From: an uncultured Ruminococcus sp.
GTDB lineage: Bacteria; Bacillota; Clostridia; Oscillospirales; Ruminococcaceae
Direction of reading: 5' to 3'
Assembly (NCBI GenBank): GCA_902787365.1
Contig: CADAGC010000039.1
Location: 1,533 to 33,779, forward strand
Length of the DNA: 32,247 bases
Positions 19,889 through 30,304 of the stretch are shown piece by piece. The notes below the pieces were generated by a model. It was not told where the DNA came from, searched no databases, and saw only the letters and a program-made list of their open reading frames with translations. The position numbers and the translations under genes were made by a program. Position 1 is the stretch's first letter. The number at the start of each line of letters is the position of its first letter.

Positions 19889-20615
19889 TTGCCGGCTGCT
19901 GACCCTGCGCTGCCTGAGCCTGCTTTTCCTCCGCCTCAAACTTGTAGCCTACGCCCCAAACGGTCTTAAGGCTCCACTTGTCCGAAACACCGTCAAGCTT
20001 TTCACGAAGCCTCTTTACGTGAACGTCTATCGTTCTCGAGTCGCCGTAATACTCAAAGCCCCATACCTCATCAAGAAGCTGGTCTCTGGTGTAAACTCTG
20101 TTGGGGTTGGAAGCAAGGTGGAAAAGAAGCTCCAGCTCCTTGGGCGGTGTGTCAACTACAACGCCGTTTACTCTCAGCTCGTATCTTGTCATATTTACCG
20201 AAAGCTTGTCATACTTAACTTCCTTGATCTCATTGTCGCCGCCGCTCTGGCCTGCACGTCTGTAAACAGCCTTTATACGGGCGATAACTTCCTTTGTATC
20301 AAAGGGCTTTGTAACATAGTCATCAGCGCCCAGCTCAAGACCGAGCACCTTGTCAAATGTCTCGCTCTTTGCGGTTATCATTATTATCGGCACGTTTGAT
20401 TTCTTTCTTATCTCTCTGCATACCTGCCAGCCGTCTATACCCGGCAGCATTACATCAAGCAGGATTATGTCAGGCTTCAAGGCGTTGAATTTAACGATAG
20501 CCTCCTCGCCGTCATGTGCGAGCATAACATCATAATTGTCCTTTACAAGATAAAGCCTTAACAGCTCGCAGATGTTCTTGTCATCATCTACTACGAGCAC
20601 TCTTCCCATAGACAT
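19881..20615 (-). CDS. OmpR/PhoB family response regulator
   Basis: A 244-residue regulator. The receiver domain has the acidic pocket VVDDDKN, phospho-acceptor Asp54 (ILLDVMLPG), the switch Thr in IMITAKS and Lys103 (TKPFD). The C-terminal winged helix (about 128-230) has PPKELELLFHLASNPNRVYTRDQLL and the recognition helix YYGDSRTIDVHVKRLREKL. The tail is Gln/Ala-rich. The start ATG 20615 follows AAAGGAAGAG; longer in-frame starts are unsupported. It leads the operon with the kinase and HtrA protease and likely controls its own promoter. Confidence 0.95.
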   Translation of the reverse strand: MSMGRVLVVDDDKNICELLRLYLVKDNYDVMLAHDGEEAIVKFNALKPDIILLDVMLPGIDGWQVCREIRKKSNVPIIMITAKSETFDKVLGLELGADDYVTKPFDTKEVIARIKAVYRRAGQSGGDNEIKEVKYDKLSVNMTRYELRVNGVVVDTPPKELELLFHLASNPNRVYTRDQLLDEVWGFEYYGDSRTIDVHVKRLREKLDGVSDKWSLKTVWGVGYKFEAEEKQAQAAQGQQPANE

Positions 20616-20719
20616 ACTAACTCTTCCTTTCGTATTTGGATTTGGAGCTTTTTGCGCTCCCATTTAACCTCTCCCTCAATTTTAAACAAAATCAAAGACA
20701 AATTCTAATTGATAGTAAA

Positions 20720-20748
20720 ATTATAACAAATTAACAGTCAAAAGTCAA
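20720..20748 (-). promoter_or_regulatory. Promoter of the two-component/HtrA operon
   Basis: Minus strand: -35 TTGACT (20743-20748), 17-base spacer, -10 TATAAT (20720-20725), about 100 bases before the regulator start. TTGACTTTTGACTGTTAA contains a repeated TTGACT 8 bases apart, a possible regulator site in the spacer. Confidence 0.82.
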
Positions 20749-21063
20749 TAGAATTTTTCGGCTATTCTGTGAACTGTTTGTTAACTTACACAATTCGTTA
20801 AAAAACTGTACCTTTAACCGCAATAAAACGACGTCGTAAACAGTTGAGTGAGGTCGATTTTTGACAAAAGTTAAGTTACATGATTTAGCCAAAAATCTCA
20901 CACCATGCCGCATTAACTAATTCATAACCTCACTTTCCGCCGCATATTATACATAATAATGAAATCCCGCCCTAAAAGCTGTGAGTTGTGCATATAACAC
21001 GCTTGCCCAAGGCGAGTCCTTTTGTGCAGTTATACAAAAATTGTGTCAGACACGTGTAATCAC
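20749..21063. other. A+T-rich intergenic region
   Basis: About 315 bases between divergent operons. No gene or RNA hallmark is seen. It contains a near palindrome TATTATACATAATAATG near 20,945-20,962 and a GTGTCAGACAC palindrome near 21,043-21,053, either of which could be a binding site. Nothing more can be supported. Confidence 0.45.
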
Positions 21064-21091
21064 TTGAAATTTCCCGAAAGTGTGATAAAAT
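21064..21091 (+). promoter_or_regulatory. Sigma-A promoter of groESL
   Basis: -35 TTGAAA (21064-21069), 16-base spacer, -10 TAAAAT (21086-21091), directly before the CIRCE element, which therefore covers the transcription start. Confidence 0.85.
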
Positions 21092-21096
21092 AGTAT

Positions 21097-21123
21097 TTAG
21101 CACTCGGGCATAAAGAGTGCTAA
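21097..21123 (+). promoter_or_regulatory. CIRCE operator (HrcA binding site)
   Basis: TTAGCACTC, nine bases, GAGTGCTAA: a perfect match to CIRCE. By family knowledge HrcA represses groESL here and is released under heat or protein-folding stress. hrcA itself is not in the window. Confidence 0.98.
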
Positions 21124-21130
21124 ACAATGA

Positions 21131-21433
<303 letters not shown>

Positions 21434-21468
21434 TATCCCTTTATGAAAAGTATATAAAACGGAGGTAA

Positions 21469-23115
<1,647 letters not shown>

Positions 23116-23134
23116 TTCAAAACCACGCATAGCA

Positions 23135-23164
23135 AAAGCCTTCCCTAATGGGAAGGCTTTTTTG
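23135..23164 (+). terminator. Rho-independent terminator of groESL
   Basis: An 11-bp perfect stem (23135-23145 with 23150-23160), loop TAAT, then a T run. The -35 of the next promoter starts immediately after it. Confidence 0.94.
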
Positions 23165-23193
23165 TTGACATAACAGTAATACTGTGCTATAAT
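23165..23193 (+). promoter_or_regulatory. Sigma-A promoter of dcd with palindromic spacer
   Basis: Perfect -35 TTGACA (23165-23170), 17-base spacer, perfect -10 TATAAT (23188-23193). The spacer holds ACAGTA-A-TACTGT (23173-23185), a palindrome that could be an operator. Confidence 0.9.
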
Positions 23194-23235
23194 TAATGCG
23201 AATACAAATTGGGTATGCATTGAGAGGAGAAAAAA

Positions 23236-23772
23236 ATGATATTATCAGATAAAACGATCATGAAAATGCTTGATGAAGGCACTTTGACGATCAAACCGAT
23301 CATAAAAGAACAAATTCAGCCTGCAAGTGTTGATATACGGTTAGGGAACACATTCAGCGTTGTTGATGATACTCCGTCGGGAATTATCACTCTTGACAGT
23401 AAGATAGCCTATAAAACCATTAAAACCGATACTTACCTGCTTTTACCCGGTCAATTTGTTTTAGCAACAACAATGGAGTATTTTGAACTGCCCGATGATC
23501 TGACGGCATTTGTTGAGGGCAGAAGCTCTCTCGGCAGAATGGGATTGTTTATTCAAAATGCCGGGTGGGTTGATCCCGGCTTCAAAGGTGAGATAACATT
23601 AGAGCTGTATAATGCTAACAGATGCGCTATAGAACTCAAATGCGGGCGTAGGGTAGGACAGTTGGTATTTGCAGGAATGGATGATCATGCACTGAATCCC
23701 TATAATGGAAAGTATCAGGGACAAACAGGTGCAACAGGCTCAAAAGTCTTTATGGATACTGATAAACTCTGA
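23236..23772 (+). CDS. dcd: dCTP deaminase
   Basis: A 178-residue trimeric nucleotide hydrolase of the Dcd/dUTPase fold. Key segments are QIQPASVDIRLGN, PGQFVLATTMEYFELP, the nucleotide loop VEGRSSLGRMGLFIQ, NAGWVDPGFKGEITLELYN with the catalytic Glu, and a C-terminal YQGQTGATGSK that closes over the triphosphate. It makes dUTP (or, in bifunctional relatives, dUMP directly) from dCTP for thymidylate synthesis; the sequence alone does not settle which. It is a single-gene unit with its own promoter and terminator. AGGAG lies 8-9 bases before the ATG. Confidence 0.93.
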   Translation: MILSDKTIMKMLDEGTLTIKPIIKEQIQPASVDIRLGNTFSVVDDTPSGIITLDSKIAYKTIKTDTYLLLPGQFVLATTMEYFELPDDLTAFVEGRSSLGRMGLFIQNAGWVDPGFKGEITLELYNANRCAIELKCGRRVGQLVFAGMDDHALNPYNGKYQGQTGATGSKVFMDTDKL

Positions 23773-23800
23773 TTCTTATTAGCAGCTGAATAAAACAAAC

Positions 23801-23834
23801 TGCCCCTGAGTGCCACGCACTCAGGGGCAATATT
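23801..23834 (+). terminator. Terminator of dcd, possibly bidirectional
   Basis: A 12-bp perfect stem (23801-23812 with 23818-23829), 5-base loop, then ATATTTTTA. On the minus strand the stem is followed by GTTTGTTTTATT, so it may also stop the convergent radical SAM transcript. Confidence 0.9.
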
Positions 23835-23867
23835 TTTATAATCCGTCCTGCAAAGCAGGACACCTCA

Positions 23868-23899
23868 ATTGTGCATTGTGCATTGTGCATTATGCATTG
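23868..23899. repeat. 7-bp tandem repeat at the radical SAM 3' end
   Basis: ATTGTGC three times, then ATTATGC and a partial ATTG. The stop codon and last codon of the radical SAM gene lie in the fourth unit. A GTCCTGC-AAA-GCAGGAC hairpin (23845-23861) is just beyond. Copy-number change could move or keep the stop, since 7 is not a multiple of 3. Confidence 0.75.
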
Positions 23900-24945
23900 A
23901 TAAAGCACACCCTCTGCTCATTCCTGTCATAATCCCAGCTGTGGTATGCCCCGCCCTCGCAGAAATCCCGCTCCTTGCAGTCACGGCATTTTTCATTCTT
24001 TTCCCAAAGGGGCGTTCTGAAAATCTCAAACTTATCATTCCAGACTTTGGTGAAATCATCACGTAAAATGTTTCCCTGAATAGTCTCGGGGCGGCGCTCA
24101 ATGTCAAGACAAGCGGCAATGTTGCCGTTTGCCATAATACTCGCCGTGTATACCCCCGCATTGCAGAGAAAATACCAGTCTCTCACCTCACGCTCGTATT
24201 CAAGCCCTAAGTAGTGCGAGCAGCCGTACATCACAGGCCAGCCCTCGTAGCGCTTTTTGCGTATAAAGTCAAGCATCTGCCGCTGCTCGTCCATTGACAG
24301 CCAGTAGTCCTTAAGCTCTAACGCCCTGCCCATAGGCTCTATGCCTATCACACGCCACGAGTCAACGTCAAGCTCTTTCATCAGCTCAAAAAGCTCGTCA
24401 AGCTGCGATAAGCTCTTCTTTGTTACAACAGTCGTCACCTGAACATTCTGAAAGCCGCCGCCCATAAGAAGCTTTATGCCCCTTACCGCCTTGTCAAAGC
24501 CGCCTTTTGAGCGCCTGAATTCATCGTGCGTTTCTCTTAAGCCGTCAATGCTCACCGAGATAGTCGCCATGCCCGTCCTTTTGAGCATCTCGACCTTTTT
24601 CTCGTCAATAAGTGTTGCGTTGCTCGTCATTCCCCAGTGAAATCCAAGCTTATGTGCGTAGCCCATTATCTGCTCAAATTCTTGCCTTAGCAGCGGCTCG
24701 CCGCCCGTTATGCAAAGCATGGGCTTTTTGGGAAAGTCCTTGGCTATCTTGTCAAGAAACTCGTGATAGACCTCAACAGACAGCTCGTCAGATTTCACGT
24801 CACCGCACCTGCTGCCGCAGTGCAGGCAGTTCTCGTTGCACCTGAGCGTCAGCTCTAAAAACAGCCGCCGCAGCTGTGGGTTTTTGCGAAGCTTCTGCTT
24901 GTATTCAAAAAGCTGCCGCATATGCTCAACTTTTATGCTGTCCAT
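23890..24945 (-). CDS. Radical SAM/SPASM protein, probable peptide-modifying enzyme
   Basis: A 351-residue enzyme. The radical SAM 4Fe-4S motif CNENCLHC uses Cys36, 40 and 43. ITGGEPLL follows (SAM contact), then SISVSIDGL-like strands (ATISVSIDGLRETHDEFR) of the TIM barrel. The C-terminal SPASM region has many Cys: CSHYLGLEY, FLCNAGVYTASIMANGNIAAC, CRDCKERDFCEGG and a final CFINA, enough for two auxiliary clusters. Such enzymes build C-C, C-S or epimerised residues in ribosomal peptides. The start ATG 24945 lies 2 bases after the stop of the YGPP-repeat lipoprotein gene, so the two are coupled and that protein is the natural substrate candidate. No RRE/PqqD-like domain is seen. The family could be the one named FibroRumin; this is from memory and unchecked. 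Confidence 0.88.
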   Translation of the reverse strand: MDSIKVEHMRQLFEYKQKLRKNPQLRRLFLELTLRCNENCLHCGSRCGDVKSDELSVEVYHEFLDKIAKDFPKKPMLCITGGEPLLRQEFEQIMGYAHKLGFHWGMTSNATLIDEKKVEMLKRTGMATISVSIDGLRETHDEFRRSKGGFDKAVRGIKLLMGGGFQNVQVTTVVTKKSLSQLDELFELMKELDVDSWRVIGIEPMGRALELKDYWLSMDEQRQMLDFIRKKRYEGWPVMYGCSHYLGLEYEREVRDWYFLCNAGVYTASIMANGNIAACLDIERRPETIQGNILRDDFTKVWNDKFEIFRTPLWEKNEKCRDCKERDFCEGGAYHSWDYDRNEQRVCFINA

Positions 24946-24947
24946 AC

Positions 24948-25556
24948 TCACTTGCCCTCGCTGCTGCCGTCGAACCACTCGGGCGGTCCGTATACGCAGA
25001 CGTTTGTGTTCTCCTCGGGGGCAAAGTCGCTCTCGGGCGCTTGTGTTTCCTCAGGCTCGTCAGGCTCCTCGTTTCCAAACCACTCGGGCGGCCCGTAAAC
25101 GTCCTCGTTTATGTTGACATCGGGCTTGTATGTTGTGGTGGTAGTGGTCTTTTTCTTTTTATCGGTCTTCTTGCTCACATCGGTCTCCTTTTTCGTGGTG
25201 GTAGTGGTCGTCGTGTCGTCAGCAGGCGGCGGCCCGTAGACGCATTCGTTCTGGTTGTCGTCAGGGTCATACGCCGAAGTCGTTGTGGTCGTGTCCGATG
25301 TCTTTTTTGCAGTAGTCGTGGTAGTGGTTGTTGTCGTAGTTGTTGTGGTAGTAGTTGTCGTGGTAGTGGTGGTGTCGCCGCTTTCCAAAAGATCCGCTTC
25401 CTCCGTTATCCCGGGAGGGCCGTACAGCAAAGGAATCTCATTATCCTCCGGGTCAAACGACGAACTTGACGTTCCGCCGCCGCCGCACGCACCAAGACCC
25501 AACGCCGCCGAAACCACTCCGCCCGCCAGCAGGGCTCTATTTACACGTTTGAACAT
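24948..25556 (-). CDS. Lipoprotein with four YGPP repeats, candidate multi-core RiPP precursor
   Basis: A 202-residue protein. It has a lipoprotein signal with lipobox LGAC (Cys24) and a Gly-rich stretch, then four copies of [FY]-x-P-x-x-N-x4-[LV]-Y-G-P-P at residues 34-48, 96-110, 143-157 and 178-192. The first aromatic and the Tyr of YGPP are always exactly 11 apart. Copies 3 and 4 continue EWF; copies 2 and 4 have Cys just before VYGPP. The copies are separated by Thr runs (21 consecutive Thr at about 62-82) and acidic or Lys-rich linkers. The gene is directly coupled to a radical SAM/SPASM gene. Repeated short cores beside such an enzyme are the pattern of multi-core RiPP precursors, but a lipid anchor is unusual. 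Its function is not known. ATG 25556 follows AAGGAG. Confidence 0.85.
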   Translation of the reverse strand: MFKRVNRALLAGGVVSAALGLGACGGGGTSSSSFDPEDNEIPLLYGPPGITEEADLLESGDTTTTTTTTTTTTTTTTTTTTTAKKTSDTTTTTSAYDPDDNQNECVYGPPPADDTTTTTTTKKETDVSKKTDKKKKTTTTTTYKPDVNINEDVYGPPEWFGNEEPDEPEETQAPESDFAPEENTNVCVYGPPEWFDGSSEGK

Positions 25557-25613
25557 GATATCACTCCTTTTTTATAACAACACTTCCGAAGTTGACTGCC
25601 TGTCGGCGGTGTG

Positions 25614-25799
25614 ATATGAAAATCGCTTCGCTCTTTCAAATCAGGGGCGGCGAACAATTCTGTTTCTCGCAGCGTTGTTGCCGCCCTAACGTTTTGCGAT
25701 TTAGATTACTTAGTTCGCCGCCCTTGCGCCTACGGCGAATAGGGCTCTGCCTGTACTCAATCGAGTTTGCTTGATTGAGTACATCCCCGCAAACTTTTT
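25614..25799 (+). repeat. Mosaic dispersed repeat, copy D (3' end lost)
   Basis: Between the YGPP lipoprotein gene and the NUDIX gene. Modules: GAAAATCGCTTCGCTCTTTC hairpin, GGCGGCGAAC (25646-25655) with its inverse (25713-25722), the GTACTCAATC...GATTGAGTAC hairpin (25754-25783), and only the left arm of the terminal hairpin. The GTACTCAATC hairpin lies downstream of the NUDIX stop and may end that operon. Confidence 0.75.
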
Positions 25800-25806
25800 T
25801 CTTATC

Positions 25807-26352
25807 TTACTTATTTTCGCTCTCCAGCAGCATCTTCGCCTTAAGTATCGCCAGCTGTGTTTTTGAGTCGAGTATCTCCCCGTTCATCACCATTTCAACG
25901 GCTTTCTCAAACGGCACCTTGAAAACATCAAGAAACTCGTCATCATCAAGCTTCCTCTCGCCAAAATCAAGCTCCCTTGCAAGATACATATGAATTACCT
26001 CGCTGTCATAAGCCACCGTCGGGTAAAGCTTGCCTAAGTAGTCGTATCTTCCGCAGACCGCTCCTGCTTCTTCCTTAAGCTCACGCCTGCCGCACTCGGC
26101 AGGGTCTTCGCCGTATTCGAGCTTGCCGGCAGGTATCTCTATCAGCTGTGTCTGAAAGGGGTAGCGAAACTGCTTGACAAGATACACGTTCCCCTCGTCA
26201 TCTATCGGCACAACGCATACGCCGCCCGGGTGCTTTATAAGCTCACGGCTCACGATGCTGCCGTCTTCGAGCTTTGCCTCGTCCTTGTAGAGCTTGACTA
26301 CCTTGCCGTCAAATATCAACTGCGAGTTTACCGTGTCTTCTGTCAGATGCAT
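25807..26352 (-). CDS. NUDIX hydrolase, ADP-ribose pyrophosphatase type
   Basis: A 181-residue protein with a full Nudix box, GKLEYGEDPAECGRRELKEEAG (residues fitting G-x5-E-x7-REUxEExGU). The N-terminal strands (LIFDGKVVKLYKDEAKLEDGS) and HPGGVCVVPIDDEG are typical of ADP-ribose pyrophosphatases (NudF/YqkG), which hydrolyse ADP-ribose to AMP and ribose 5-phosphate. The SEVIHMYLARELDFGE segment also fits. The ATG at 26352 shares one base with the stop of the YfhO gene (TAATG) and follows AAGGAGG. Longer in-frame starts would overlap YfhO by 180 bases and are rejected. Confidence 0.93.
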   Translation of the reverse strand: MHLTEDTVNSQLIFDGKVVKLYKDEAKLEDGSIVSRELIKHPGGVCVVPIDDEGNVYLVKQFRYPFQTQLIEIPAGKLEYGEDPAECGRRELKEEAGAVCGRYDYLGKLYPTVAYDSEVIHMYLARELDFGERKLDDDEFLDVFKVPFEKAVEMVMNGEILDSKTQLAILKAKMLLESENK

Positions 26353-28805
26353 TATGCTTCCTCCTTTTTCTTCTTGGCTGTCGCCTTGCCCTTCTCGGGG
26401 CTTTCCTTTTTCTTTTTGAAGTATATCACGTAGACTATAAGCGTTACCACGCTTATGCCCGTCAGCACAGCGCCGACTCTTATGCCCGGGGTCACGTAGC
26501 TGAAAACTATCTCGTTTTCCCCCGCCTTGCACCTTACCGCCATAAAGCCGTATGATGCCTTTACTATCTCGGCCTCCTCGCCGTTGACCGTCGCACTCCA
26601 GCCCTCGGTGTATGGTACGCTGAAGAACACCAGCCCGTCCTTTTCCTGCTTGTTCTTTGCGGTGAAGCCGTTGGTGTCATATTCAAAGCTGTAGCATGAG
26701 GATTCTTTCTTCTCCTCGCTCATTCTCTCAAAATCGAGCCTTGTGAGCATCTCCGACTTTGTGGAAGATTTTCCCAGTATGTCAGAGTGCTTCTCTATGT
26801 CCTCGTCCTCCAGCACCAAAGCGTGCATGAGTATGTTGGTCTTTTTAAAGGTAGTCAGCTCCTCAAAATCCTCCTGGGTGATGTATTCGTCATACACAAA
26901 GCCCATAGGAATAAAGTTCTCGTTTTTGTAGATGTTAAAGCCGTTCTGTGAGCCGACGTATTTGAAAGAGGGCATATCTTCAAGCTCAGGCTTGGGTTCT
27001 TTCGGCTCCTTGTCCTCGCCGTAGTTGTCCACCTTTTCCTCGAAGTAGTATTTTACCGAGAAAAGCCCTCTGTATGCGTAGTATTTCGGCTCGATACGTG
27101 AAGCCACGTTTCTCTCCTGCCCTGCTGTCTCGTAGAATACCATTATCGACGAGGGCACCACGCTCTGGAAGCACCTCATAGAGCTTAAGCCCCAGAACAT
27201 ACACCAGTTGTCTACATTGGGCGAGGTGTCTATTCGGTAGAAGTTGTTAGCACTTGCCTTTTCCTCGTCCGTCTCAAACTCTGACAGGTCAACGCTCTCT
27301 CTGCCGTTTATTGCGTGCTCGATGTAGTAGTCATTGTAAGGCCCCTGCGTAACACCGTACCATACGCATACAGCCATGCTCACCATGCAGGTCGCCGTCG
27401 TGAAAAGGCACGCTATGCGCATAAAGCTCTCCCGCTTCGAGAATTTGTAAAGTATGATACCCAGCAGCACGACCGACACGACCGCACCGCCTGCCTGAAT
27501 ATAGTACAGATTAATATACTTCGGCACTTTGAGCCATACGACCTTGTCGTCCTCTCTTTTCGGCAATAGTCCGCAGAGGATAAAAAACGCCGTTATCACC
27601 GCCACGGGCGGGAATGCCCTCTTGACCTCCTGCGGGTCTTCTTCGAGTATCTGTGCGGTCATCATAGCCATGATGAGTATGGGCATATAATACCACCTTG
27701 CATAGTAGCTTGCCACCATCATAGAATAAACCGCATTGAGTCCGGGAATTATCATCATTATAAAGCAGGTGTAGATAAGCCGCTTTGCCCAGCTTTTGTT
27801 TTTCGTCCTCACAAAAGCCAGCACGCCCGTCATTGAGAACAGCGGCATATATCCCGCAATAGATGCCCACCTTGCGGTGTCTGAATTGAAGATGTTGTTT
27901 CTTGCAGGCATATCGGGCAGCATAAAGAAGCACTGAATGATCCTCAGTATCCTGAACTTGTCGCCGTAGGCTATAAGGTCTGTGCCCCAGAGGTGTTCGT
28001 TCACTCTCGGGTTGCTTATGGTGTCAAGGCAGGCAGGCAGGAATATCACAGCCGCAAGCATAACGCCCAGCACCGCTTCAAAGGCGAGATTTAGAAGCTT
28101 CTTTATGTCGATATCATAATCGCCGCTCAGAAGCCTTATCATAAAGTAGATGACTACGAACACTACCTCTCCGAAGAAGAAGAAATAGCTGATACAAGCG
28201 CACAGCGCCACCGCAAGTGCGAAAGCCCCACGCTTGTTCTGCTTGATATTGAGTTCAAGCGCCAAAAGCAGAAGCGGGAACACCGCCGTTGCGTCGTGGA
28301 AGTGGTTAAAGAACACATTATACGCCTGAAAGCCCGAAAAGGCATAGAGCATAGCGCCTATAAAGGCGGCGTCCTTATTCTTTACAAAAAGTCTAATATA
28401 TGCATAAGCGCTCATTGCCGCAACGCCCGTCTTGACGCCCAGCATTATGGGTATCATATAGACCTCCCACGAGGGTGGGAAGATAAGCGTGAACCAGAAA
28501 AAGGGCGAGCCTAACAGGTAGAACGAATACGACCCTATAAAGCTCGAGCCGAGGTCTGTGCCCCAGTCCCAGCCGAGGTTACCGCTTTTTATCATCTCAT
28601 TCGAGTGATAGTAAAACATCTCCTGCTGCGAGTTGAAATCGCCATAGTAGAGGAACACGCCCTTATTGACTATCAGCGACGGCAGAAAGCAAAGCAGCAT
28701 TCCCGCCATTGACAGCACAAACAGCAGCAGATATCTTTCCTTATCATATTTTGCAGGGCGCAGGTATTTATTTGTCTGCCTTAGCCCCTGTAGCACCTTT
28801 TGCAT
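26352..28805 (-). CDS. YfhO family integral membrane protein
   Basis: An 817-residue membrane protein with about 13 hydrophobic helices: one after a ~25-residue cytosolic start, a cluster to about residue 470, and one at the C-terminus (ITVVT-type helix near 780-800). A ~270-residue outside domain lies before the last helix. The FLYYGDFNSQQEMFYYHS loop and the GWDWGTDLGSSFIGSYSFYLLGSP stretch are typical of YfhO/GT-C-like proteins. B. subtilis YfhO is implicated in glycosylating lipoteichoic acid, so a polymer or lipid glycosylation role is the best inference. The C-terminus is Lys-rich (cytosolic). AAGGAG lies 13 bases before the ATG, a rather long spacing. Confidence 0.9.
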   Translation of the reverse strand: MQKVLQGLRQTNKYLRPAKYDKERYLLLFVLSMAGMLLCFLPSLIVNKGVFLYYGDFNSQQEMFYYHSNEMIKSGNLGWDWGTDLGSSFIGSYSFYLLGSPFFWFTLIFPPSWEVYMIPIMLGVKTGVAAMSAYAYIRLFVKNKDAAFIGAMLYAFSGFQAYNVFFNHFHDATAVFPLLLLALELNIKQNKRGAFALAVALCACISYFFFFGEVVFVVIYFMIRLLSGDYDIDIKKLLNLAFEAVLGVMLAAVIFLPACLDTISNPRVNEHLWGTDLIAYGDKFRILRIIQCFFMLPDMPARNNIFNSDTARWASIAGYMPLFSMTGVLAFVRTKNKSWAKRLIYTCFIMMIIPGLNAVYSMMVASYYARWYYMPILIMAMMTAQILEEDPQEVKRAFPPVAVITAFFILCGLLPKREDDKVVWLKVPKYINLYYIQAGGAVVSVVLLGIILYKFSKRESFMRIACLFTTATCMVSMAVCVWYGVTQGPYNDYYIEHAINGRESVDLSEFETDEEKASANNFYRIDTSPNVDNWCMFWGLSSMRCFQSVVPSSIMVFYETAGQERNVASRIEPKYYAYRGLFSVKYYFEEKVDNYGEDKEPKEPKPELEDMPSFKYVGSQNGFNIYKNENFIPMGFVYDEYITQEDFEELTTFKKTNILMHALVLEDEDIEKHSDILGKSSTKSEMLTRLDFERMSEEKKESSCYSFEYDTNGFTAKNKQEKDGLVFFSVPYTEGWSATVNGEEAEIVKASYGFMAVRCKAGENEIVFSYVTPGIRVGAVLTGISVVTLIVYVIYFKKKKESPEKGKATAKKKKEEA

Positions 28806-28852
28806 TTTCTTTTGTTATCTCCTTTTTAGATATAAGAGTAAAGATTTATAAT

Positions 28853-28882
28853 TGTTCCACGTGAAATGTTCCACGTGGAACA
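28853..28882. promoter_or_regulatory. parS-type site pair (ParB binding)
   Basis: A 16-bp perfect palindrome TGTTCCACGTGGAACA (28867-28882), overlapped by a second unit, TGTTCCACGTGAAATG (28853-28868), offset by 14 bp. It matches the Firmicutes parS consensus within one or two bases and lies 50 bases before the YfhO gene. Confidence 0.92.
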
Positions 28883-28923
28883 TTTGGGGTTTTCCCATGG
28901 TTTTCGGGGGTTTACGGAGGGTG
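28883..28923. repeat. Conserved parS flank, copy 1
   Basis: A TTTTCCCATGG-TTTTCGGGGG-TTTACGGAGGG stretch always on the right of the perfect parS. It is nearly identical to 30,447-30,487 and 31,464-31,504. No protein or promoter function is apparent. Confidence 0.8.
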
Positions 28924-28949
28924 TGTTTTGGGCTGCCATGGTGTTTTGT

Positions 28950-29010
28950 CCCCGCAAGCCCTTTTTGAGGAAAAGGGCCCCTCCGAAAACCTTTTTATGT
29001 TTATGTTCTT
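28950..29010 (+). repeat. Fragment of the mosaic repeat with broken terminal hairpin
   Basis: The left arm CAAGCCCTTTT (28956-28966) and loop TGAGG are present. The right arm then switches to AAAAGGGCCCCTCCG and AAAACCTTTTTATG. The same GGGCCCCTCCG junction occurs at 6946-7014. It lies just beyond the serS stop. Confidence 0.65.
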
Positions 29011-29011
29011 A

Positions 29012-30304
29012 TTACTTAGTTGTCTTCTCCAGCTTATCCTTACCGCCCATATACATTCTAAGAGGCTCAGGTATTCTTACAGTACCGTCTGCCTGGAGGT
29101 TATTTTCAAGGAATGCGATAAGCATTCTCGGCGGTGCAACAACTGTATTATTAAGTGTATGCGCAAAATACTTCTGGCCGTCAGCGCCTGCAATTCTTAT
29201 CTTAAGGCGTCTTGCCTGTGCGTCGCCTAAGTTCGAGCAGGAACCTACCTCGAAATACTTCTTCTGTCTCGGGCTCCAGGCTTCAACGTCACAGCTCTTT
29301 ACCTTAAGGTCTGCAAGGTCGCCCGAGCAGCATTCAAGTGTTCTTACGGGTATATCAAGTGAGCGGAAGAAGTCAACGCTATTCTGCCACAGCTTATCAT
29401 ACCACTTCATAGAATCCTCGGGCTTACATACAACGATCATTTCCTGCTTTTCAAACTGGTGGATCCTATAAACGCCTCTCTCTTCTATTCCGTGAGCGCC
29501 AACTTCTTTTCTGAAGCAGGGGCTATAGCTTGTAAGGGTCTTAGGAAGCTCTGCCTCGGGGGTGATAGTGTCGATAAACTTACCTATCATCGAATGCTCG
29601 GAAGTACCGATAAGGTAGAGATCCTCGCCCTCGATCTTATACATCATATTCTCCATTTCAGCAAAGCTCATAACGCCTGTAACAACGTCAGAACGTATCA
29701 TAAAGGGCGGCACGTAGTAAGTAAAGCCCCGATCAATCATAAAGTCTCTTGCATAGGAGAGAATTGCCGAGTGAAGTCTTGCGATATCGCCGCTTAAATA
29801 GTAGAAGCCGTTACCGCTTGTTCTTCTTGCAGCGTCGAGGTCGATACCGTTAAGGCTCTCCATAATATCAACGTGGTAGGGCACCTCAAAATCGGGCACA
29901 ACGGGCTCACCGAAGCGCTCTATCTCGACGTTCTCGCTATCGTCCTTACCTATCGGCACGCTATCGTCGATAATGTTAGGGATAACTAGCATTCTCTTTC
30001 TTATCTCAGCCTCATACTCTGTTTCCTTAACTTCGAGTGCTTCAAGCTCTGCGCCGAAAGCCTTTACTTCTTCCTTGACCTTTTCGGCTTCCTCTTTCTG
30101 ACCCTTAGCCATAAGGCCGCCTATCATCTTGCTCTTTGAGTTACGGAGTGCTCTGAGCTCGTCGCAGCGTGTCTTTGCGGCTCTGAACTTTGCGTCAAAG
30201 TCGATTACCTCGTCAACGAGGGGCAGCTTATCGTCCTGAAACTTCTTCTTGATGTTTTCCTTTACAACGTCGGGGTTTGTCCTTAAAAATTTGATGTCTA
30301 ACAT
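29012..30304 (-). CDS. serS: Seryl-tRNA synthetase
   Basis: A 430-residue class II synthetase that charges tRNA-Ser. Residues 1-~105 form the long helical arm coiled coil (FDAKFRAAKTRCDELRALRN...EEAEKVKEEVKAFGAELEALE). The catalytic core has LIGTSEHSMIG, motif 2 CFRKEVGAHGIEERGVYRIHQF and motif 3 TLNNTVVAPPRMLIAFLENNLQADGTVRIPEPLR. Length is normal. AGGAGG precedes the ATG. It sits between two parS clusters. No T-box leader is present in the 70 bases upstream. Confidence 0.98.
   Translation of the reverse strand: MLDIKFLRTNPDVVKENIKKKFQDDKLPLVDEVIDFDAKFRAAKTRCDELRALRNSKSKMIGGLMAKGQKEEAEKVKEEVKAFGAELEALEVKETEYEAEIRKRMLVIPNIIDDSVPIGKDDSENVEIERFGEPVVPDFEVPYHVDIMESLNGIDLDAARRTSGNGFYYLSGDIARLHSAILSYARDFMIDRGFTYYVPPFMIRSDVVTGVMSFAEMENMMYKIEGEDLYLIGTSEHSMIGKFIDTITPEAELPKTLTSYSPCFRKEVGAHGIEERGVYRIHQFEKQEMIVVCKPEDSMKWYDKLWQNSVDFFRSLDIPVRTLECCSGDLADLKVKSCDVEAWSPRQKKYFEVGSCSNLGDAQARRLKIRIAGADGQKYFAHTLNNTVVAPPRMLIAFLENNLQADGTVRIPEPLRMYMGGKDKLEKTTK

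Follow-up and report, generated by a model that had tools for sequence, protein, structure and literature searches.

Closest described systems

The PlpXY splicease removes C8H9NO from a peptide chain at an XYG site, acts on MYG and LYG, and does not need the leader; tags with LYGLP appear in the same work (PMC10533398). PlpX is listed under IPR026482 (PMC11002830), and spliceotide products have been described as inhibitors of proteases (PMC11117315 and PMC10373908, both citing Scott et al. 2022). A second system is the named pair of a radical S-adenosylmethionine (SAM) enzyme, TIGR04133 (rSAM_w_lipo), and a lipoprotein, TIGR04134. TIGR04133 is listed as a hypothetical equivalog (hypoth_equivalog) in NCBIfam of June 2026, and neither model was found in a paper of the open-access literature searched, a set that includes neither Haft and Basu (2011) nor Scott et al. 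(2022). Here we describe a locus related to both systems in a stretch of 32,247 nucleotides from an uncultured Ruminococcus sp. (contig CADAGC010000039.1, positions 1,533 to 33,779; hereafter the window). In it a radical SAM/SPASM gene begins 2 bases (24946-24947) 3' of a gene encoding a lipoprotein with four YGPP units, both on the minus strand. Such enzymes and YGPP-bearing proteins (carriers) are paired as a rule, and the YGPP unit is a portable tag found on proteins of several kinds.

The enzyme and its presumed substrate

The open reading frames (ORFs), their translation and Pfam confirm the arrangement that an earlier reading of the letters alone (the sequence-only reading) had proposed, a 202-residue lipoprotein with four units followed closely by a radical SAM/SPASM gene. 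The features are these:

24948..25556, minus strand: lipoprotein with four YGPP units, 202 residues, the presumed substrate (ORF and direct reading)
25485..25556, minus strand: signal peptide ending in the lipobox LGAC (Cys 24), read directly from the translation
25413..25457, minus strand: unit 1 of the lipoprotein, FDPEDNEIPLLYGPP
25227..25271, minus strand: unit 2 of the lipoprotein, YDPDDNQNECVYGPP
25086..25130, minus strand: unit 3 of the lipoprotein, YKPDVNINEDVYGPP, then EWF
24981..25025, minus strand: unit 4 of the lipoprotein, FAPEENTNVCVYGPP, then EWF
23890..24945, minus strand: radical SAM/SPASM enzyme, 351 residues, placed in a divergent TIGR04133 branch (NCBIfam, Pfam, trees)
24817..24840, minus strand: CNENCLHC, residues 36-43, then G44 and S45, common to the splicease-type group described below (alignment)
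23974..24165, minus strand: SPASM domain, residues 261-324 (Pfam)

Both the radical SAM and the SPASM domain match Pfam, and the CxxxCxxC motif is seen directly in the translation. The enzyme starts at the ATG at 24945; a GTG at 24978 is possible, yet the alignments of relatives begin at the ATG. The lipoprotein has no Pfam match and no TIGR04134 match at E 0.1, and when the window genome was searched with TIGR04134 the best place lay away from the lipoprotein (E 0.11).

All four units share the consensus [FY]-x-P-x-x-N-x4-[LV]-Y-G-P-P. The aromatic residue stands at a constant 11 positions before the Tyr, as had been noticed, with 10 residues between the two and not 11. Likewise, the Thr runs described between the copies are present between units 1 and 2 and between units 2 and 3, while the spacer between units 3 and 4 is acidic instead. 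None of 100,000 shuffles of the lipoprotein contained two or more YGPP; together with the strand bias in related loci (see below), this rules out chance or low complexity as the source of the units. The four units use different codons and thus did not arise by recent duplication of the DNA.

Pairing of enzyme and carrier across genomes

We compared the best 80 of at least 503 confirmed enzyme relatives in genomes of named species (59-85% identity). By record title they belong to Ruminococcus, Oscillospiraceae, Lachnospiraceae and other Clostridia, mostly from rumen or gut, and include three Ruminococcus flavefaciens isolates (L086, L096 and L107). A carrier lies near the enzyme on the same strand in 79 of the 80 loci, with YGPP in 76 and YGSP or YGPG in 3. 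The YGPP ORF ends at most 266 bases before the enzyme in 71 loci (within 60 bases in 63), follows it directly in 4 and lies 1.3 kb after it in 1; in the three loci with altered motifs, a lipoprotein with C-AYGPG or C-AYGSPP directly adjoins the enzyme. In the remaining locus (L081) the enzyme is 134 bases from the upstream contig end, and the 5.8 kb downstream are free of carriers. Of the YGPP ORFs of at least 40 residues in these 80 loci, 111 share the strand of the enzyme and 1 does not.

The same pairing is seen within the family to which the window belongs. The enzyme is present in 12 of 197 genomes (TIGR04133 scores of 268-301 bits), and a carrier adjoins it in 11 of them. The twelfth genome (G126) has no carrier within the 8.6 kb read, and four dockerin-YGPP genes on other contigs. 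Six of the 197 genomes contain the strict motif YGPPE[WY]F; all six have the enzyme, and none of the 185 enzyme-free genomes has the motif (Fisher 1.2e-8). All 12 sites adjoin the enzyme, and a reversed control motif gave none. The sequence-only reading had named lipoprotein homologues that occur widely without the enzyme gene as a result that would speak against it; judged by this motif, that is not the case. Its view that the adjoining enzyme probably acts on the YGPP units, with several units per protein, holds, whereas its description of the arrangement as unusual does not: pairing is the rule, and the locus is a sister of the rSAM/lipoprotein pair already named.

The short motif V/L-YGPP was rejected as a genome-wide marker, being unspecific: it matches 23 of 24 genomes (12 with the enzyme and 12 without), and only the longer motif is specific. 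Among 15 of the 35 V/L-YGPP loci viewed in enzyme-free genomes, five are P-loops of the form LYGPPG.GKT (RuvB-like and other AAA-like proteins) and the other ten are single matches in other frames, none of them multi-unit. In genomes with the enzyme, 7 of 15 viewed loci are P-loops (Lon, RuvB).

Outside Clostridia, a plasmid search gave no examples beyond three known ones (Parabacteroides, Phocaeicola and Treponema), a phage search gave no further enzyme, and viral contigs gave no further example of the Bacteroidota enzyme. One contig of a viral collection (L133:3997-6059) encodes the enzyme beside a zinc-ribbon-like protein with two FEPYENI..YGSP units; this contig is likely cellular, since phenylalanyl-tRNA synthetase-like ORFs follow.

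Residue constancy of the tag

Residues were counted in 109 distinct carrier ORFs, chosen for having at least one YGPP, with altered copies in the same chains also counted. At the first position of xGPP there are 254 Tyr, one Asp and no Phe or Trp; at the second position of YxPP there are 254 Gly and two Ala. In the 253 distinct YGPP contexts the residue before the Tyr is Val in 70% and Leu in 19%, and otherwise mostly Ala, Ile, Ser or Thr. Further upstream, Phe or Tyr is found at -11 in about 62%, Pro at -9 in 52% and Asn at -6 in 42%; downstream, Phe is found at +6 in 36%. The +2 residue is variable, mostly Pro and also Ala, Val, Met or Ser, with Ser, Thr or Met in other phyla.

The shared core is therefore Tyr-Gly, and the upstream aromatic residue and Asn are optional; the upstream part of the unit may serve as a recognition aid outside that core. 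The proposal that Phe/Tyr and Asn are the modified residues is not borne out by these counts, and crosslinking of the -11 aromatic and the -6 Asn was rejected as a general rule because both positions are optional.

Tag carriers

A domain scan covered 108 of the 109 carriers, leaving out L126:5770, a frame that overlaps a true carrier. Type I dockerins were found in 29 of the 108 and Lgt in one, and DUF805 membrane proteins are also among the carriers. A loose lipobox pattern is present in 62 of the 109, with the Tyr two or three residues past the Cys in 16. One PNP/UDP phosphorylase-family protein (L205:1450-2523, plus strand) has two N-terminal YGPP units, with the enzyme gene elsewhere in its genome. 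The unit is thus a portable tag, and display on a lipid anchor, which the sequence-only reading had taken as the key feature, was rejected as a defining one, the tag being also on dockerin, membrane and enzyme carriers.

A hydrophobic N-terminal stretch is missing in 15 of the 109 carriers. L126:5770 is among these, and several others reflect a wrong start or a contig end; L062:5279, L080:5765, L115:5804 and L128:5274 seem genuinely to lack a signal peptide. In carrier L078 the hydrophobic stretch is placed later.

Some individual carriers may be mentioned separately. The Lgt at L058:4509-5558 (plus strand) has a C-terminal YGPP tail and adjoins a YGPP lipoprotein and the enzyme. At L087:7064-8090, L088:7142-8881 and L089:3334-4917 the YGPP lipoproteins lie downstream, and in some of them the C-terminal part is larger; no Pfam family matched the one of L087.

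Kinship of the enzyme

The best NCBIfam family of the window enzyme is TIGR04133 (289.7 bits, below the cut-off of 425). FibroRumin, SCIFF and triceptide models, which had been suggested for comparison, do not appear by name among the 25 best of 76 matches. Members above the cut-off came from the plasmid search: Parabacteroides distasonis (607.9 bits), Phocaeicola massiliensis (617.5) and Treponema saccharophilum (451.4). Each adjoins a TIGR04134 lipoprotein, carrying YGSP, YGTP and YGMP, respectively, and the distance from the lipobox Cys to the start of Y-G-x-P is 10, 12 and 1 residues. Y-G-x-P beside a lipid anchor is thus common to three phyla, with one or two examples each.

Maximum-likelihood trees were built with 36 and 43 enzymes, AhbD not being sampled. 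The first used 36 of 43 prepared sequences (dropped were one empty, three of another family or in a wrong frame, two near-duplicates and one other); for the second, three more long-branch rows were dropped and ten added, and four outgroup rows of about 460 residues were called SCIFF-like by eye. The window enzyme and the above-cut-off TIGR04133 members form one clade (100/99). Its sister group, here called splicease-type, comprises TIGR04103 (Nostoc), TIGR03913 (Azospirillum) and relatives from Aureibacter, Tropicibacter and Agathobacter, with support of 95/92 in the 36-enzyme tree and 96/89 in the 43-enzyme tree. Outside the joint clade in the larger tree are MftC, NirJ, NirJ2, TIGR04053, PqqE, ACGX and the four SCIFF-like enzymes. 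G44, S45 and W197 are present in all 20 members of the TIGR04133 and splicease-type groups, and in 0, 4 and 2 of the 23 others. Profile comparison, made with small alignments, gave the order Bacteroidota/Treponema TIGR04133 (504), splicease-type (337), NirJ/NirJ2 (287) and MftC (262). When the Aureibacter and Agathobacter enzymes are scored, TIGR04133 comes third among the families (175 and 185 bits), behind TIGR03913 and TIGR04103.

A confident AlphaFold model of the window enzyme (predicted local distance difference test, pLDDT, 88.3; predicted template modelling score, pTM, 0.87) has an N-terminal helix ahead of the barrel and no separate N-terminal domain. The top Foldseek folds are SkfB, SuiB, anSME, CteB and PqqE. 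Although alike in fold, SkfB, SuiB, CteB and PqqE have other reactions and target residues; PqqE lies outside the joint clade, and SkfB, SuiB and CteB were not in the trees.

By sequence, the window enzyme is placed as a divergent clostridial branch of TIGR04133. It shares with the TIGR04133/TIGR04134 pair the enzyme clade, the gene pairing and a lipoprotein partner, and in the three members read the Y-G-x-P lies at most 12 residues from the lipobox Cys. It differs in that the enzyme scores under the cut-off, the lipoprotein is not matched by TIGR04134, and the clostridial carriers often have several units, not one, and include dockerin, DUF805, Lgt and phosphorylase-family proteins.

Other features of the window

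One further feature lies between the enzyme gene and a dcd-like gene, whose 3' ends face each other:

23799..23831, minus strand: strong hairpin (z -6.3 for 23785-23850), a possible terminator

Three near-tandem TGCATTG repeats (23872-23898) at the 3' end of the enzyme gene span its stop codon; their 13-base pattern was found in 8 of 179 loci compared, some of which are copies of the window. Among the ORFs from 20,000 to 30,000, viewed by eye, the neighbours are groES/groEL, a dcd-like gene, a NUDIX-type gene, a large membrane protein and serS. In agreement with the sequence-only reading, no protease-, exporter- or RiPP recognition element (RRE)-like gene was seen among them by eye, no RRE model having been run (RiPP, ribosomally synthesized and post-translationally modified peptide).

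Proposed reaction at the tag

The best explanation, towards which we lean without great confidence, is a splicease-like excision of tyramine at YGPP that leaves alpha-keto-beta-amino acids in displayed proteins. The enzyme would cut the tyrosine part (tyramine) out of the chain at the Y of YGPP, leaving a reactive keto group. In the window there would be up to four such sites per lipoprotein, formed before Sec export and lipidation, and the outside of the cell would show an array of keto-amide residues. In relatives the tag would have moved onto dockerin proteins, and hence into the cellulosome, and onto membrane proteins and some enzymes. A splicease reaction fits better than ring crosslinks because the Tyr is indispensable and the Gly nearly so, the preceding residue is free (small or hydrophobic), and the substrates are leaderless.

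The comparison with PlpXY and the spliceotides points the same way. TIGR04103, presumably the PlpX family, and TIGR03913 with its DUF1843 peptides belong to the sister clade. The x-Y-G target of the splicease is present in the window lipoprotein and in the carriers, some precursors and tags have Pro at Tyr+3 (LYGLPPELF, LYGLP), and several sites per chain are possible. The Nostoc TIGR04103 member (853 bits) adjoins a Nif11 precursor ending in IALYGLPPELF, close to VYGPPEWF of the window, and the frame just before the Agathobacter enzyme ends in ..PVMYGTGVRM. Eight DUF1843 peptides beside TIGR03913-like enzymes, which may be splicease substrates, all have a Tyr near the start, followed by Gly in four. 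Loci of such peptides are L139:2287-2742, L140:2153-2866 and L142:2028-2743.

Several observations weigh against a splicease-type reaction. Among the families matched by the window enzyme, TIGR04103 ranks no higher than tenth (107.3 bits, cut-off 725); AhbD (146.8), MftC (135.6), NirJ families of several types, TIGR04053, AhbC and a pseudo-SAM family all score better. The Nostoc enzyme itself scores slightly higher with AhbD (154.1) than with TIGR04133 (152.0). That TIGR04103 is the family of PlpX, which is listed under IPR026482, is an assumption. A tree that places TIGR04133 with MftC was not rejected (approximately unbiased test, p 0.129). Unlike the splicease-type group, the window enzyme has no C-terminal extension; in the window neither a PlpY-like partner nor a leader of the Nif11 or nitrile-hydratase type was seen by eye, and the putative substrates are whole, mostly secreted proteins. 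Few precursors of the sister group are available, half of the eight DUF1843 peptides carry YM or YA, and beside the Tropicibacter enzyme no precursor could be recognised. Finally, the phosphorylase-family carrier, presumably cytosolic, does not fit a purely outward role.

The alternatives have to account for the same residues and the same kinship. SPASM enzymes often form crosslinks (PMC11002830), and a cyclophane or another C-C, C-N or C-O bond could be made from the Tyr ring; its partner might be the +2 residue, as triceptides have it, or else the aromatic residue or Asn further upstream. The nearest solved folds do varied peptide chemistry, and the aromatic residue at -11, the Pro at -9 and the Asn at -6 are all enriched, but we consider such a bond unlikely: the upstream residues are optional (62% and 42%), the +2 residue varies within and between phyla, and both tree and profiles favour the splicease-type group. 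Moreover, Phe or Trp never stands in for the Tyr here, while the cyclophane enzymes XncB, OscB and MscB use Trp or Phe (PMC11002830). The earlier idea of a multi-core crosslinked RiPP is supported only in part; the observation behind it was right, and the system is wider than first seen. It is improbable, in turn, that YGPP stays unmodified and serves as a ligand for a binding partner, with the enzyme acting on another substrate. YGPPE[WY]F does resemble a proline-rich ligand, but it occurs only with the enzyme (all six genomes, against none of the 185 enzyme-free ones), tag and enzyme stay together over carriers of unrelated fold, and Y-G-x-P recurs by the enzyme in three phyla.

Oxidation of the Tyr with a bond to the preceding Val, as in mycofactocin, appears very improbable, even though MftC is also a radical SAM/SPASM enzyme acting on Val-Tyr. 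The Val found before the Tyr at 70% of the sites recalls MftA, which ends in GVY; MftC is the third best NCBIfam match of the window enzyme, and the tree test above leaves room for it as the partner of TIGR04133. MftC first decarboxylates the Tyr (PMC8326336), and this Tyr is the last residue of MftA, whereas the Tyr of the window is internal. The 135.6 bits lie below the MftC cut-off of 265, no MftB-like ORF was seen by eye although MftB is encoded beside MftC, Leu, Ala, Ser and Thr also precede the Tyr, and MftC is further off in the best tree and in the profile scores.

Possible role and significance

If splicease-like excision is the reaction, a speculative function can be suggested. Keto-amides with Val or Leu at P1 and followed by Gly-Pro-Pro might trap serine or cysteine proteases. 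The arrays would then be a small-peptide counterpart of cellulosomal serpins, which are dockerin-borne and thought to protect the cellulosome from proteases (PMC5301203). This functional analogy is a guess, as a serpin is a folded inhibitor made without a radical enzyme. In the open-access literature we found no paper joining YGPP and radical SAM, and none joining dockerin, radical SAM and R. flavefaciens; we know of no such modification of the cellulosome. As a tentative wider proposal, which we hold with less confidence than the reaction itself, x-Y-G-P-P may be a portable backbone-splicing tag of rumen and gut Firmicutes, served by one enzyme that also acts in trans, with keto arrays on the surface and in the cellulosome trapping proteases or binding partners.

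If true, beta-amino acid splicing would extend beyond small secondary metabolites and be a general means by which bacteria of gut and rumen modify their proteins. It would reach surface lipoproteins and the cellulosome, and would assign a reaction to TIGR04133. Such a tag, which occurs in nature, needs no leader and offers several sites, would in addition be useful for introducing keto groups into proteins.

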